This document shows positions 2,061-8,418 of a DNA stretch of 64,000 nt, one piece after another; positions within the stretch are counted from its first letter, which is position 1, and each line of letters opens with the position of its first letter. The notes below the pieces were generated by a model. The model searched no databases. It was not told where the DNA came from and saw only the letters and a list, made by a program, of their open reading frames with translations. The DNA comes from an uncultured Alphaproteobacteria bacterium (GTDB lineage Bacteria; Pseudomonadota; Alphaproteobacteria; Rhodobacterales; Rhodobacteraceae): assembly GCA_902531755.1 (NCBI GenBank), contig CACAFI010000003.1, positions 1-64,000 on the forward strand. Direction: 5' to 3'. Made by a program: the position numbers and the translations under genes.

Positions 2061-2407
2061 AATAGACTTTACCCAAATACACAGACGTAATTAACATTAA
2101 CCAAGATAATCAATCGTTTATATCAACTATCTCAACTCCTAATCTCAAAACTCGTTCTACTGCTCAATATTATTATCCAATCAAATCAACTATTTGCATT
2201 TACAAAATGATTAAACAAATTGCTTGTAAACTATTCAATTTTTTTAACAAAGCTAATTGTTTAATTAATCTTTAGGTTTCTATTGCACTCTTAATTAAAG
2301 GAACAATTTTTTTGTTAAAATATGGAAATAATAATAATTAAGAAAAACAGACTCGACTTTTACTATTTTTTTTGTTTGAATCGAAAAACAAAAATAATGA
2401 GATTTTT

Positions 2408-2803
2408 ATGTCAATAGCTATACTTCAGACCATGGTTTTAGCTGCATTTGCCGATGGAAAGCTTGATCCAGAGGAAAAAAATTTGATTAGAACCTATCAG
2501 TTATTATACCCTCCCCTTCAAGACATCCCAAAAGAAGAACTGGACGAGGAGATGATTAATATTGCAAAAAAAAAGGCTCTAAAAGTAAAAGATAGACATA
2601 TAATTGAAGATATTGGAGAAAAAATGTCGAAGTCTGAAAAAGAAACAGCATTTGCACTTGCTGCTGAAATCTGTGCTTCAAACTTTAAGTTTGTTCCTCC
2701 AGAGAATGACTTACTAGATTTTCTCCAAGTTAATTGGGGTATAAAAAAAAATACAGCTCTTGCAGTTTATAAGTCACTAAAACTTCGCTATGCTTCCAAG
2801 TAA
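2408..2803 (+). CDS. TerB-like small acidic-helical protein
   Basis: 131 aa from the ATG at 2408. The frame is open back to a TTG at 2372, but the conserved part begins at the ATG (MSIAILQ). The segment A-D-G-K-L-D-P-E-E-K near residue 18 is the signature of TerB-like helical-bundle domains, in which acidic residues can bind metal. No signal peptide or membrane segment is visible, so it is predicted cytosolic. TerB domains recur in tellurite and stress systems next to membrane and DUF2135/TerD-type proteins, which fits the two leftward genes that follow. A related TerB-like domain ends the M48 protease at 28.2 kb. The family call is good; the function is unknown. Confidence 0.75.
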   Translation: MSIAILQTMVLAAFADGKLDPEEKNLIRTYQLLYPPLQDIPKEELDEEMINIAKKKALKVKDRHIIEDIGEKMSKSEKETAFALAAEICASNFKFVPPENDLLDFLQVNWGIKKNTALAVYKSLKLRYASK

Positions 2804-2835
2804 AGCTTTTCAAGATTAATTTTGAATATCCCTGC

Positions 2836-3801
2836 CTAAGTACCAGTATTATGCGTATAGGTTAGAATTTTTGTGAGAGAGTTTTTTAGCTTAGTAGTTC
2901 TGTGACTTATTTTATTAACATGAAACTCTTTTAGAATTCCGCCTTCATATACTAAAATCTCAAAATTTGTATGTCCATTTCTGTTAGCTGTTCTATCGTT
3001 GTGTAAACTAACCCAAACTTCATATTCACCTTCCATGGCTTCTTGGAAATTTATATTCTCTATTGGTTGATTAGTATAATTTGACACATTTTTGTCTAAG
3101 TCTAGTCTTCCACCAAACTTACCTGGAAGATAGGGACTAGTATAACTAATAATTTTCCTATCTGGTCTCTTGACATGTATATCTAGGTCGTTAGTATTCT
3201 CCCACTTCAGCAAAAAGCTCAATGCTTTTCCTTGAATGTTAACATTATTTTTTCTTAGTCGCTCTTTCGCAATTCTATTTGTATTCTTAATCTCGTTCTG
3301 ATCAGGTTTTAAAATATTTTCTCCAGTTGTAACATTGGGTTGTCTATTTACGTTCTGTGAAGGTTGGTTTTCCAATAATTGCTGAATTTCTCTCAGTTTT
3401 TTTTCGGTTATCTCGCCATCGCCCTGAGACAAAATACTTTTAATTTTTTCATATATAACTGGGTCAGTATTATTTATGTACAAAGGAAAATATTTTATAA
3501 CTTCGATGACTTTATCCACTTTTACCTGTTCTATTACTCGTTCGATTTCTACTTTGGGTACTCGAACTATTTTATCAATTTCTTTTATTTTTTCCTGTTT
3601 TATAATCCAAATAAAGATACCAAGAGCGATTAATAATATGGCTAATGCACATGCAATAAGTATTAAAGGCAACCCCAATCTTTTTAGATTGTCTATAAAG
3701 AGCCTCCAAGTTAGAATTCTTTCTCTTTTTGCTAACTCGTCTACATGCCGGTCAACAGCCGAAAAATCTCTTGTAACATACTCTGCATTATCTTTTTCCA
3801 T
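2836..3801 (-). CDS. Membrane-anchored protein with C-terminal DUF2135-like domain
   Basis: 321 aa. A single membrane helix at about residues 42-67 follows a charged N-terminus. Residues 75-108 carry a Val/Pro/Lys/Glu repeat ending in YFPLY. A low-complexity Asn/Gln linker (about 140-190) leads to a beta-rich domain (196-300) whose L-K-W-E-N-T-x-D-L-D-I-H-V start and GEYEVWVSLHN segment resemble DUF2135 (YfaP-like) domains. It lies 44 bp downstream of, and on the same strand as, the DUF4407-like gene, so the two are probably cotranscribed. Both share the juxtamembrane repeat, suggesting one complex. No enzymatic motif is visible. The DUF2135 assignment is from the motif only. Confidence 0.7.
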   Translation of the reverse strand: MEKDNAEYVTRDFSAVDRHVDELAKRERILTWRLFIDNLKRLGLPLILIACALAILLIALGIFIWIIKQEKIKEIDKIVRVPKVEIERVIEQVKVDKVIEVIKYFPLYINNTDPVIYEKIKSILSQGDGEITEKKLREIQQLLENQPSQNVNRQPNVTTGENILKPDQNEIKNTNRIAKERLRKNNVNIQGKALSFLLKWENTNDLDIHVKRPDRKIISYTSPYLPGKFGGRLDLDKNVSNYTNQPIENINFQEAMEGEYEVWVSLHNDRTANRNGHTNFEILVYEGGILKEFHVNKISHRTTKLKNSLTKILTYTHNTGT

Positions 3802-3845
3802 GAAGTGTTTCTATAGGTTTATTTAGATATGTATTGTAATTTGTC

Positions 3846-6032
3846 TCATTTATTTGCAGGAGTTGGTTTCCGCGAGGCAGTTCTTTTTGCTCTTGCCGTT
3901 TTATTTGCTGTAGTCTTTGGCTTTGTAGCTTTTGCTTTAGGTTTTGAATTTGTCGATTCTGCCTCTCGACCTTTTTCATTTGAGCCCTTTTTATTAGGTT
4001 TTACCTCATCTTTAATTTCTACATCAATAATTTGAGATTCTGTTTCGATAGAATTATTTCCTTCAATTGTTTGAACAGGTATCTTTGAATTCTTCAAAAC
4101 GTTAGTAGCATCAACTACACCGGCTTCGGTAGCATAAAAGGGAACGTGAACTAACTCTTTTCGGACTATTTCAACTGGTACCTCTTTAAGGGCTATCTTT
4201 TCAACTGGAATTTCCTTTTCTACCTCTACAATTCTATCAACCGGAACCTCTTTTATAACCTCTTTAATTATTTCTACTTCTTTTTCGACCTCTTTTTCGA
4301 TCTCTACAATCTTCTCTACTTCTACAGGAACTTCTACCTTTCTCGGCTTATTTATCCGTCTCCTTAGGGCTACCGCCAATAATCGGATAGCTCTCCTTAC
4401 AGGCGTACTTTTTATCATTTTCTGTTTTTCTCTAAATGCTTCAGGATCTTGCATTATACTAGAAATTAAAGCCAGGATTGTACCTACTGTAGCACAAATT
4501 AGTGCAATAGAACCGAACCAGAGAAATCCAACGAAGGACAAATCTCCTTCTGAAACTTCCAAGATATCGATTTTCTTACCCTCAGCTAAGTTCTTATCTC
4601 TGTCCATAAAGCTTCGATATTTTTTTGCAAACCTATAGATCTGATTTTTTTCTGCTTCTCTCCTTAAGCTATTTTTCTTTGATGTGATCTTCTTATTAAG
4701 ATTTGTTATCTCTTTATCGAGATCTTTTTCTCTATCTTTCTCTGCACTTATTGTTGAAGTCAGATTACTTTTTTGCTCTTCTAAACTGTTTATCTTTATA
4801 TTAAATTGCTGCTTATCGGTATCTTGTTCCTCCTTAGAGTTTCTATTTAATTCCGCAATTAAGTCTCTCTTTTTTTCAATTTTTTTATCTAACTCTTTTA
4901 CTTCTGGGACTTTTGTCTGTTGCTTGAGTAATTCATCCCTCTCTTCGGTGTATTTATTTATTTTGTTTTCTTCTTCATTAATCTCTCTTTCTTTATTTTC
5001 CCTATTAAGATCCCTCGACTTTTTATAGTCCTTTCTAATAGTGTCGATTTCCTCACGAATATCGTCAATTTTGTCTTGTTGCTGCGATAGGAAATTGTCT
5101 ACATTTCTATTTGTGTTAGGACCCCTCTTTCCATCTTCTGTCACCCCAATCATATTTTGAGCCAACTTTATCTGTCCTGTCTCACCACTAGTCACATAAT
5201 TTTTAACTTTATCCATGAGGGTCTTAATATCATCAATATTTTTTAGTTTTTGATCTATTCCGTCGACTTCGCCTGACTCAATAGCATTAAGTTCTTCTCG
5301 TAATTCAGAAATTCTTGTTGCACTTTTTTGCTCTTGTTGTTCTAAAAAGGATATTCTTTTTATTGAAGCCTTGAGGATTTCATCCTTTCTGGCATTGAAA
5401 CCCTTTATTTCTTCTTGAATTTTTTTTGTCGCCTCATTTAAGCTGTCTCTGGCATTTTCTGTTTCGCCTTTTCTGCTGTTTTTAAGGGTTTTTATTTGTT
5501 CATCAAGATCTTTAGTTGCGTCAGGTATTGATAGTTGTTTTATTCTTTGTTTTTCTTTATTTAAGTCGACTATTTCATCTTCATAAGCACGAATTTCGTC
5601 TTTCCCTTCTGTGACTATTGCAGTGGTGTTTGTTACTTGCCTTTCTAGCCCTGTAAAAATGGTTTCAAAAGTAACAACAGTTAGACCTATCAGTGCAATA
5701 AGGATCAGAAGTTTCCAACCCAAATGCTTTACTTTATACAGACCGAGTGCCAAGGGTATTTTTGTGGGCTCTATTACTGCTATTAGAACAAAAGGGAGTG
5801 CACCCAATATAGCGCCTATAAGTTTAGAATCAGAACTTGACGTGTAGGCGTCGTAAGCCATAAAAAAGGCTATGCAAAGACCAAGAGATGCTGCCAAAAT
5901 CTCAACAGCCCAGGCTGTTATATATATTCTTCTCCCGAACTGCTGTTCTTTAGCAAACTTATCTTTGGTAAAGTCATCTCCAAAAAAAGACTCGAAAGCA
6001 CTAGTATCAATAATATTTTTTTCTTCAGCCAT
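3846..6032 (-). CDS. DUF4407-like coiled-coil membrane protein
   Basis: 728 aa from the ATG at 6032. An in-frame TTG 24 bp upstream lacks a ribosome site, whereas CTGGGAA precedes the ATG. N-terminal membrane helices (about residues 35-130) are followed by a very long Lys/Glu coiled coil (about 140-495), another membrane helix (about 510-535), then a repeat of V-P-V-E-x-I-V-E type units (about 565-640) ending in HVPFY, and a Lys/Ala/Thr-rich basic tail. This architecture matches DUF4407 proteins, whose function is unknown. The preceding spacer of 261 bp probably holds the promoter. The coiled coil suggests an oligomeric scaffold. The basic tail might contact nucleic acid or the acidic inner leaflet (speculative). 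Confidence 0.75.
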   Translation of the reverse strand: MAEEKNIIDTSAFESFFGDDFTKDKFAKEQQFGRRIYITAWAVEILAASLGLCIAFFMAYDAYTSSSDSKLIGAILGALPFVLIAVIEPTKIPLALGLYKVKHLGWKLLILIALIGLTVVTFETIFTGLERQVTNTTAIVTEGKDEIRAYEDEIVDLNKEKQRIKQLSIPDATKDLDEQIKTLKNSRKGETENARDSLNEATKKIQEEIKGFNARKDEILKASIKRISFLEQQEQKSATRISELREELNAIESGEVDGIDQKLKNIDDIKTLMDKVKNYVTSGETGQIKLAQNMIGVTEDGKRGPNTNRNVDNFLSQQQDKIDDIREEIDTIRKDYKKSRDLNRENKEREINEEENKINKYTEERDELLKQQTKVPEVKELDKKIEKKRDLIAELNRNSKEEQDTDKQQFNIKINSLEEQKSNLTSTISAEKDREKDLDKEITNLNKKITSKKNSLRREAEKNQIYRFAKKYRSFMDRDKNLAEGKKIDILEVSEGDLSFVGFLWFGSIALICATVGTILALISSIMQDPEAFREKQKMIKSTPVRRAIRLLAVALRRRINKPRKVEVPVEVEKIVEIEKEVEKEVEIIKEVIKEVPVDRIVEVEKEIPVEKIALKEVPVEIVRKELVHVPFYATEAGVVDATNVLKNSKIPVQTIEGNNSIETESQIIDVEIKDEVKPNKKGSNEKGREAESTNSKPKAKATKPKTTANKTARAKRTASRKPTPANK

Positions 6033-6293
6033 TACATTTCCCAGATTACCTTCCAACGAGCCATGGTGCTAGAAGTGGATCACGTCTACCTTTTAAAAAA
6101 TTTACAGTCAGAAAAGGTTACAGTTAATCTTTAAAAAATCAATTACAATATTTGAGAGCTGTTTAGAATAATGAAATAATCTAGATAAGCAGAAATAATT
6201 TGATGCAATTTAAAAAATAAATTAATTTTTGATAATGCCAAATTGAATAGAAATTTAGTTGAGAAAAGATAATGCTTATTGTTTAATTTACCT

Positions 6294-6956
6294 ATGATAA
6301 CAATTCTTCTCACATTCTTGCCTAGCTTACTTATTGTTAGTATTTTAGTCTTTTCAGATAAGTTTAAAGAACCTAAGGGAATGATCTTTTCTACCTTTAT
6401 TCTTGGGTTTTTAATTTGTTTTCCAGCAGGCATCTTGAATGGCTGGATGATTTGGGACAGAGATAACCCAGACAACTTCGCCTATTTAGCTGGGCTGAGC
6501 GAAGAGACACTAAAATTTCTTTGCCTTTATTTCTTTATTAAAGATAGGGTAGAATTTAATGAGCCAATGGATGCAATTATTTATGGAACATTAATTTCTT
6601 TAGGATTTGCAACCTATGAAAATTTTGAATACGTTTATATTTATAATGAAAATGTGCCATCTTTTGAAATTGCATTAGTAAGGTCTCTGACTGCAATACC
6701 TCTTCATGCTCTCTGCGGAGTTATAATGGGTTATTTTTTTGGGTTATATATTTTTAGGCAATCAAAAATTTCTCTAGTGAAGTGTTTGGCGTTACCAATT
6801 TTTTTTCACGGATTTTATAATTACCTTCTTTCAACTACGCAAATTATTGTAGTTTTATATCTCGGGGCTTTGTTGGCTTATGCGTTCTTCCTTCACAAAC
6901 AATTTAGAAATGAACAAAAGCTAAAATTAGATGAGCAGGAAGAGAAATATGTTTAA
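6294..6956 (+). CDS. prsW: PrsW-type intramembrane metalloprotease
   Basis: 220 aa from the ATG at 6294; an in-frame TTG at 6279 is possible and neither start has a good ribosome site. Several hydrophobic helices span the protein. The putative metal-site residues of the PrsW/CAAX-like superfamily are in place: Glu-Glu-x-x-K (E70/E71), an E-N-x-E pair near 109-112, P-L-H (H138) and F-H-G-F-Y-N (H172). PrsW in Bacillus cleaves anti-sigma factor RsiW; here no sigma/anti-sigma pair is adjacent. The stop overlaps the start of the ion-channel gene by 8 nt, so the protease and the channel are probably translationally coupled and functionally linked. Confidence 0.85.
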   Translation: MITILLTFLPSLLIVSILVFSDKFKEPKGMIFSTFILGFLICFPAGILNGWMIWDRDNPDNFAYLAGLSEETLKFLCLYFFIKDRVEFNEPMDAIIYGTLISLGFATYENFEYVYIYNENVPSFEIALVRSLTAIPLHALCGVIMGYFFGLYIFRQSKISLVKCLALPIFFHGFYNYLLSTTQIIVVLYLGALLAYAFFLHKQFRNEQKLKLDEQEEKYV

Positions 6957-8418
6957 GTTTTTGCTGTTTATTTTATTTTTATTTCCTTTTCAGGTCATGA
7001 GTTTTACAAATTTTGATGAATGTTCACTCCTTATGTCAAAAATGATAGAGAAAAAAGAGATGATGGACTTTGATACCCCAACTCATACTTCTTATTTTTA
7101 CCACGGAATAGAGATTCAAAAAGATTTTAAAAATGGAATACGACCATATATCAAAAGAATTCATCCTGATACTTTAGAAGATGATAATGAAATGGAGGGT
7201 TATGAAAAAAACTATGAGATTTGGAACGAAGATATACTCACTATTAATGGAATTGACACACTAAATATTTCTGAGGAAGAATTTGAAGCAGAGTTTGATA
7301 AAGACGAAATAGAGTTATCGTTTAAGAACGTAAAAAAAACATATAAGTTTACAAAAAAAGATTATTCCTCAAGAGAATTATTTGTCACAAGCGATATTAA
7401 AACTATCAATAATATCGATACCAAAAATTCTACTTTTGATGCAGTATTCGATGTAAATGTAACTTGGAATGACTATAATTTATCGGAAATTGCGTTTAAT
7501 GTAGCAAAGGAAGCTGAAAAGGCAGTTGAGGGCTCGATAGAAAATACTAATTATCTTTGTGTTTTACCAATCGACTTTATGCTCTCTATCGGATACCTGT
7601 TGCCACAAATGTCCATCAGTAATTTCAAAACATCAATTGATTATAAGGAATTAGAAAATGTAGTTTTTGATTATTATGATCCTGAAAGTTGTGATGATGA
7701 CTGCTTAGATGAAGAGAAAGAATTTGGAATTGTTCAACTACATTTTACAGAAAAATATCAAGGTACAATAACTAATCCTCTTAATTTACATAAATTTCCT
7801 TTTGATAAGCATGATTTGGACATAAACATCGTGTTTAAATATGATTACTTTTACGACGAACCATACTTTTCAGATCTGCAAGAAAAAACTCTAAGTTCAA
7901 ATTTTTCAAATTTAGTAAGCGCTGAATGGAGTTTTAATGACCATTACCAGATATACGGAAGTGACTATTTGCCGTCAACTAATGTAAGGGTTCCAACGCT
8001 TACTTTAGGTTTCGAAATCGAAAGAGCATATTCCTATTTTATATTTAAAATAATCTTTCCGATAATATGCTTATTGCTAGTCTGCTGGTCTACTTTCTGG
8101 ATCTCACCTAATGAATTGGAAAGTCGTGTAACTATAAGCATTGTTTGTCTACTTTCCCTGATTGCTTATAACTTTGTAATAGATACAGATATTCCTAAAC
8201 TTTCCTATTTAACATTTTTAGACCAGTTTATTCTAATTTCATATCTTTTTGCAGGACTTCCAACAATTCAAACTGTCTTAAGTCGAAATGTTTTTGAAAA
8301 AAAGGGTAACGACGCTGCTACAAGTTTTGATAAATATTTTAAAATATTAGTTCCTTCTATATACGTTTTTTCCATTGCCTCATTAGTTGTTCAGACTGAG
8401 ATAGGCTTTGGTTCATAG
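6949..8418 (+). CDS. Pentameric ligand-gated ion channel (GLIC/Cys-loop family) with an N-terminal PDZ-like domain
   Basis: 489 aa from the ATG at 6949, chosen for its GGAAGAG site and immediate signal peptide (residues 1-18). Residues about 48-138 look like a PDZ-like fold (D-I-L-T-I-N-G-I-D turn, then I-E-L-S-F). The ligand-binding beta domain runs about 148-358 and has the family's F-P-F-D (283-286) without the Cys-loop cysteines, as in other prokaryotic members. Four membrane helices follow: M1 361-385 with Pro371, M2 392-412, M3 420-446, M4 464-483. The M2-M3 stretch (D-T-D-I-P-K-L-S-Y-L-T) closely parallels GLIC. Glu391 sits at the -2' position, predicting cation selectivity; Arg393 is 0' and Leu402 is 9'. 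The ligand is unknown. An acidic CDDDC loop (248-252) precedes the FPFD strand. Confidence 0.9.
   Translation: MFKFLLFILFLFPFQVMSFTNFDECSLLMSKMIEKKEMMDFDTPTHTSYFYHGIEIQKDFKNGIRPYIKRIHPDTLEDDNEMEGYEKNYEIWNEDILTINGIDTLNISEEEFEAEFDKDEIELSFKNVKKTYKFTKKDYSSRELFVTSDIKTINNIDTKNSTFDAVFDVNVTWNDYNLSEIAFNVAKEAEKAVEGSIENTNYLCVLPIDFMLSIGYLLPQMSISNFKTSIDYKELENVVFDYYDPESCDDDCLDEEKEFGIVQLHFTEKYQGTITNPLNLHKFPFDKHDLDINIVFKYDYFYDEPYFSDLQEKTLSSNFSNLVSAEWSFNDHYQIYGSDYLPSTNVRVPTLTLGFEIERAYSYFIFKIIFPIICLLLVCWSTFWISPNELESRVTISIVCLLSLIAYNFVIDTDIPKLSYLTFLDQFILISYLFAGLPTIQTVLSRNVFEKKGNDAATSFDKYFKILVPSIYVFSIASLVVQTEIGFGS

Follow-up and report, generated by a model that had tools for sequence, protein, structure and literature searches.

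A pentameric ligand-gated ion channel (pLGIC) subunit with a predicted PDZ domain is encoded directly downstream of a PrsW-family intramembrane protease in the window, the whole stretch of 64,000 nucleotides analysed here, and this pairing of PDZ-type channel and protease recurs across many very different marine bacteria. Because the protease gene overlaps, and is inherited together with, the gene of one particular membrane protein, the simplest reading is that PrsW acts on the adjacent sensor channel as a dedicated protease, a reading that we favour tentatively and at somewhat less than an even chance. The genome of the window (a 1.5-Mb assembly, 64.5% complete) probably belongs to a small-genome, marine alphaproteobacterium. 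Features of the locus are collected in Table 1.

Table 1. Observed and predicted features of the channel-protease locus, in window coordinates.
Feature	Position	Strand	Basis
PrsW-family intramembrane protease, 220 aa	6294..6956	+	PF13367, 5.9e-31; ATG 6294, stop 6954-6956
8-nt overlap ATGTTTAA of channel start and PrsW stop	6949..6956	+	Sequence; matching frame in congener L018 1516-1523
pLGIC subunit with predicted N-terminal PDZ domain, 489 aa	6949..8418	+	Pfam, phmmer, AF2, Foldseek
Predicted helix, residues 24-35, with Cys25	7018..7053	+	AF2 model; C in 69/75 long channels
Predicted PDZ domain, residues ~47-142	7087..7374	+	AF2, Foldseek, VIA, profile search, Pfam matches of homologues
Predicted ligand-binding beta-sandwich, residues ~143-358; FPFD pro-loop at 7795-7806	7375..8022	+	phmmer, AF2, Foldseek
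Predicted four-helix transmembrane domain, residues ~359-485; Glu391 at 8119-8121	8023..8403	+	Pfam, AF2

The channel and its predicted PDZ cap

Within the channel reading frame (6931/6949-8418), the ATG at 6949 aligns with the start of the congener's gene and yields an N-terminus that, judged by eye, is hydrophobic and signal-like. The channel matched the Pfam family Neur_chan_memb (PF02932, 4.8e-7) and, in a phmmer search of the PDB, an ELIC-GLIC chimera, sTeLIC and GLIC entries, with E-values from 1.8e-16; the PF02931 profile gave no match anywhere in the window's genome, the controls included, and is therefore uninformative. An AF2 model of the full channel, built from a 28-row alignment, reached a pLDDT of 81.1 and a pTM of 0.67. 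The 50 Foldseek matches listed for this model were all pLGICs by title, with sTeLIC as the best at 1e-19, and the model was also compared with GABAA and DeCLIC, showing the ligand-binding beta-sandwich followed by a four-helix transmembrane domain that defines a pLGIC. All elements of the pLGIC core named in the original prediction are present: FPFD at residues 283-286, whose beta6-beta7 loop proline does not vary across alignment A5 (28 rows), Pro371 in M1, and Glu391 in M2. The M2-M3 stretch had been described as very close to GLIC and in fact resembles it only at the ordinary level of pLGICs. By family, as judged from sequence and model, the gene encodes a true pLGIC, whose subunits would assemble into a pentamer. 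Glu391 aligns with a Glu of GLIC that we take to be position -2', and the residue is E in 88, D in 3 and R in 1 of the 92 channel ORFs. Since Glu at -2' predicts cation selectivity in the pLGIC family, the window's channel is predicted to be cation-selective.

A PDZ-like domain at residues 48-138, between the signal peptide and the ligand-binding domain, was part of the same prediction. Fold prediction, run as the test on which this proposal could fail, returned a PDZ fold at residues ~47-142, and structure comparison and profile search likewise point to a PDZ domain there. The window's own sequence gave no Pfam PDZ match; among 28 homologues at E<=1, PF00595 was matched by 12 (best 7.1e-6), PDZ_2 by 9 and PDZ_6 by 7, and a profile of 27 cap domains retrieved PDZ domains from the PDB, with an Aquifex site-2 protease providing the top match (2.1e-12). 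Residues 20-146 modelled alone by AF2 gave a pLDDT of 87.4 and a pTM of 0.73, with strands and helices in PDZ order. The 50 Foldseek matches listed for this cap model were PDZ domains or PDZ-bearing proteases, the best at 6.2e-3 and none at E<=0.001. The 50 listed by VIA were likewise PDZ domains or proteases containing one, with a best Z of 7.6 over 84 residues, a level at which the tool warns that a match may reflect a common arrangement. Some entries of both searches are presumably PDZ-bearing proteases although their titles are silent on this.

The loop glycine before beta2 is conserved in 26 of 27 aligned cap domains and is followed by F, I, L or V in 25 of them. We take this glycine to be part of the PDZ carboxylate-binding loop, and its conservation is compatible with peptide binding by the cap. 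Because Cys25 and Cys204 are nearly invariant (69 and 70 of the 75 long channels, respectively), a disulfide bridge between them likely joins the cap to the ligand-binding domain; the 13 short, PDZ-less channels have a cysteine near both places too.

The PrsW gene

The upstream partner had been read as a PrsW-type intramembrane protease; position 6294, where the stretch singled out in the original prediction begins, is the PrsW start, and its PF13367 score in the Pfam scan was 108 bits against a cut-off of 23.5. All 75 aligned relatives share residues E70, E71, K74, E109, H138 and H172. We take the conserved Glu-Glu and His residues of PrsW to be of the catalytic type, and because the six residues are invariant, the protein is probably an active intramembrane protease. 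The predicted overlap of the channel ATG with the PrsW stop amounts to 8 nt and is operon-like; translation of the two genes may be coupled.

Many PrsWs, the one in the window (6933-6953) included, have a C-terminal tail that is basic and closes with a hydrophobic residue (E-K-K-I/L or similar), and stand-alone PrsWs of that type keep such a tail as well. The hydrophobic C-terminus was considered as a ligand of the PDZ domain and rejected: it is common, but present in stand-alone PrsWs too, and the tail, being basic, is probably cytoplasmic.

Distribution of the channel-PrsW pair

Two of the 22 genomes of the genus hold the channel, and the same two hold this PrsW. In the second congener (G157) the pair is again adjacent, its genes being 53% and 65% identical to those of the window, and the flanking genes differ. 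A scan of GTDB genomes with a channel alignment (four rows, two of them from PrsW-linked loci; search patterns within M2-M3) kept the best 80 of 92 relatives, corresponding to 77 distinct loci, mostly from SAR11 with some from SAR86 and other Alphaproteobacteria, and PrsW lies within 48 of these 77. The idea that the pairing might be unique to this genome, which was searched as a refuting test, thus did not hold. When the 92 channel ORFs, including that of the window, were grouped into 40 clusters at 50% identity, PrsW was found at most 30 nt from the channel in 25 clusters and at most 2.5 kb away in 30; among the 24 clusters of long channels that adjoin a PrsW, median mutual identity is 29%. 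Starting from the genomes of 43 of the 77 loci, chosen for diversity, we found PrsW in 35 genomes with 40 genes, of which 31 lie inside channel loci and two 6-7 kb from a channel; the other seven had no channel in the stretch retrieved, some of them lying at contig ends.

The four-row alignment found relatives in genome contigs, whereas single-sequence scans of genome and viral contigs found no channel relative; neither did the 28-row alignment in viral contigs, nor one SAR11 channel used as query against phage sequences. Plasmids yielded one partial channel match, from Legionella (41% covered, 27% identity).

Among 197 genomes of the SAR11 family, 11 hold both genes, 7 the channel only, 10 PrsW only and 169 neither (p 2.4e-8). 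PrsW was counted in the 21 genomes above the cut-off (24 of 197 matched) and a clear channel in the 18 with E<1e-15 (35 matched at E<=0.001). The other 17, at 1e-4 to 1e-3, matched the channel model nearly always within the N-terminal domain only, and three that were opened are RseP-like proteins matched at their PDZ domain. The centre of this set, genome G558, was chosen for having the pair; leaving it out raises p to 1.4e-7, and when the look-alikes G582, G675, G780 and G782 are in addition counted once, the counts become 7, 7, 10 and 169 (p 2.7e-5). In the 11 genomes with both genes, these always share one contig and lie at most 7 kb apart, with only three pairs directly adjacent (G558, G560, G569), two at ~0.4 kb (G769, G625), one at 1.2 kb (G600), one at 2.6 kb (G599) and the four look-alikes at 6.6-6.8 kb. 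The SAR86 order (203 genomes; 15 matched, of which the two with E<1e-90 were used) has a clear channel in L068, with PrsW adjacent, and in G562, whose channel and PrsW are both located at contig ends.

Patchy presence, as in 2 of 22 congeners, and differing flanking genes are what would be expected if PrsW and channel merely shared a variable island, their neighbourhood carrying no functional meaning. Tight adjacency across clusters with a median identity of only 29%, together with joint presence and joint divergence, argues against this explanation, which we regard as very improbable.

Joint inheritance and divergence

Over 30 directly adjacent pairs, the divergence of the channel and that of PrsW were correlated (Mantel r 0.63, with 0 of 2000 permutations as high). 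In the channel tree, SAR86 locus L068 joins the window and its congener in a three-member starred clade, followed by L069 (support 84); the PrsW tree has all four in a single starred clade. The trees disagree on how L068 and L069 branch and on where L070, which sits on a long branch, belongs. In both trees, the window and its congener stand apart from SAR11 and group with another alphaproteobacterium and a SAR86 bacterium, a position compatible with transfer of the unit.

The channel evolves faster than PrsW. In 34 non-independent comparisons in which the PrsWs share at least 75% identity, median identity of the channel is 69% in the transmembrane domain, 29% in the ligand-binding domain and 25% in the PDZ domain. 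The conserved part of the channel is thus the membrane part that PrsW could touch, a weak contrast because channels that lack PrsW likewise have the transmembrane domain as their conserved part. Specially accelerated sensor domains were considered and rejected: at 70-80% transmembrane identity, the median ligand-binding domain identity is similar in long (50.8%) and short (45.3%) channels. Comparison of linked with unlinked channels for a PrsW-contact signature likewise gave no clear PrsW-specific site.

Channels and proteases without the partner

Of the 149 genomes in the window's family, 16 have pLGICs; apart from the window's own genome, the matches begin at about residue 269 or later and have no detectable similarity to the PDZ cap. 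At 23 other pLGIC loci (16 from the family, 7 from the class; L031-L037, L039-L054) no PrsW was detected at E<0.1 within the stretch retrieved, the control PrsW model consisting of two rows and L031 starting inside the channel, with its upstream side outside the data. Most of these control loci lack the cap, but L032 and L033 do have a PDZ domain. PrsW was also absent from the stretch covered in 29 of the 77 channel loci (from the best 80 of 92 relatives), and in one cluster of 16 PDZ channels none has an adjacent PrsW. Pairing with PrsW therefore tracks PDZ-type channels, although not all of them have it.

These channels bear on the possibility that PrsW serves the assembly or quality control of a channel that is hard to fold, without any role in signalling. 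The overlapping genes, their joint inheritance and the small changes in PrsW while the channel changes much would all suit such a role; the many PDZ channels without a nearby PrsW argue that it is not generally needed for folding, and we consider this explanation rather doubtful.

Conversely, 10 of the 21 PrsW-bearing SAR11 genomes have no clear channel. Several stand-alone SAR11 PrsWs (L182-L191) adjoin signal-bearing membrane proteins, such as a DUF2167 protein (L186 5453-6388), which may be their partners. The PDZ channels of L032 (6942-8327) and L033 (7662-9014) are nearly identical in the PDZ and ligand-binding parts and diverged from M2 onward, which suggests an exchange of parts between channel genes.

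Comparison with known systems

The ligand-binding domain, FPFD, M1 proline, -2' Glu and four transmembrane helices are common to the window's channel and to GLIC, ELIC and sTeLIC. These three have PDB chains of 306-329 residues without a PDZ cap, however, and the accessible parts of the literature on them do not mention a protease partner. An extra periplasmic N-terminal domain is found in DeCLIC as well, where it consists of two jelly-roll lobes instead of a PDZ domain, according to the available part of the 2025 paper, which describes DeCLIC as the sole pLGIC whose N-terminal domain has been characterised in part (PMC12664993). The bacterial pLGICs of Tasneem et al. also have extra sensory domains, fused or neighbouring; these are PBP-I, Cache, MCP-N and PBP-II, and the words PDZ and protease are absent from the text searched. 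The available part of Jaiteh et al. 2016 (PMC4795631) discards the terminal parts, mentions Pelagibacter once and gives no biological role as known for any pLGIC of a unicellular organism.

PrsW of Bacillus subtilis is, like that of the window, a PF13367 intramembrane peptidase with several transmembrane segments, but its known substrate in the accessible part of the source is an anti-sigma factor (PMC3482391), whereas the neighbour in the window is a channel. Proteases of the RseP/DegS type have PDZ domains, that of RseP being related to the window's cap; there the PDZ domain lies within the protease, whereas the one predicted here caps a channel and the protease is a separate protein. Literature on pLGICs, PrsW and SAR11, mostly non-subscription, contained nothing on the PDZ cap or the pairing with PrsW among the matches listed. 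SAR11 rank with the most numerous cells of the ocean, and the PDZ cap and recurrent protease partner in this group make the role of bacterial relatives of nerve receptors directly testable. The key questions raised concern the substrate of PrsW and the partner bound by the PDZ domain.

Proposed function

In the mechanism that we propose, five subunits would form a cation pore, each contributing a ligand-binding domain and a PDZ cap that is probably pinned by the Cys25-Cys204 bridge. The PDZ groove would probably hold periplasmic peptides or proteins by their C-termini and thereby bias gating. The pair may also sense envelope stress, as the original prediction suggested. PrsW would sit beside the channel in the membrane and act on it, most likely by cutting its transmembrane or juxtamembrane part, which could end or reset signalling or clear damaged channels.

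The order of action could also be the reverse, with the channel as receptor and PrsW as effector, so that ligand binding activates PrsW, another membrane protein is cut and gene expression changes. Such a role has a precedent in the PrsW prototype, which makes the site-1 cut in the anti-sigma factor RsiW, as described in the available part of PMC3482391. A regulator could be supplied by a CII-like family of ~152 aa (for example L082 2264-2722), which may be regulatory and lies at most 2.5 kb from the channel in 58 of 78 loci, many of them close relatives; its Pfam match, in the one member scanned, is weak (0.0014, below the cut-off). Against this order, a scan of nine proteins around the pair identified no sigma or anti-sigma factor, all of them falling into other families or none, and no member of the CII-like family was detected close to the channel of the window. 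We judge it unlikely, and retain action of PrsW on the channel as the preferred reading.

An amine oxidase beside short channels

Twelve of 78 loci have a member of a flavin amine oxidase family at most 2.5 kb from the channel, in every case on the same strand; the member in L081 matched PF01593 at 1.3e-43, and we take its N-terminal start to be a twin-arginine-like motif. Seven oxidase loci that were opened (L071, L075, L078, L081, L099, L106, L111) have the order PrsW, oxidase, short channel, the last two directly adjacent; in L071 the oxidase (5550-6875) is directly upstream of the PDZ-less channel, and there are 11 further such SAR11 loci. Twelve of the 13 short-channel cluster members have the oxidase; L093 has another gene in its place. 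Because nine loci hold two channel genes, with PrsW and oxidase, mixed channels of two subunit types are possible.

The short channel of L071 (6878-8092) is nearest to sTeLIC (3.7e-26), then to ELIC (5.1e-25). One PDB entry of sTeLIC is titled as a complex with 4-bromophenethylamine, and ELIC is activated by primary amines, according to the available part of PMC3119659. The oxidase beside the PDZ-less sister subunit suggests a small amine rather than a peptide as ligand in that one SAR11 clade, where it could possibly be a ligand-clearing enzyme. The wider distribution of the oxidase speaks against a specific link. Its search matched 132 of 197 SAR11 genomes, of which the 7 with E<1e-90 were taken as clear: five of them (41-45% identical) have no clear channel, and the two close relatives (69 and 89%, one being the chosen centre) both adjoin channels. 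As no oxidase is adjacent to the channel in the window, the amine idea is not extended to it. An improbable extension for the SAR11 clade would be a synaptic-receptor-like module, in which a mixed channel of PDZ-capped and PDZ-less subunits is gated by an amine, a periplasmic oxidase encoded just upstream of the second subunit clears this ligand, and PrsW tunes or removes the receptor; the two-gene unit of the window would then be the minimal form, with fast-changing sensor heads on a conserved pore-protease core.

Other neighbouring genes

Upstream of the pair, the window contains a three-gene module (2372-6056) of a TerB-like gene, a protein with one transmembrane segment (321 aa) and a 736-aa coiled-coil membrane protein. 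The module recurs in genomes G159, G165 and G409, in G409 beside the channel in another order, and L077 and L084 encode a relative of the 736-aa protein close to a channel. We rejected these genes as members of the unit: just 4 of 78 loci have the coiled-coil family near the channel, and 3 of 22 congeners have the module, with no channel found in G159 and G165; the contig of G165 ends on the channel-relevant side, and the channel of G409 is on the opposite side of the module. A caspase-domain protein is encoded near channels in L113, L138, L139, L141, L142 and L143 (in L142 at 3249-4745, PF00656 3e-18), and the same six loci also carry a gene of a trypsin-like family that is found in 13 loci (for example L115 4177-5499).
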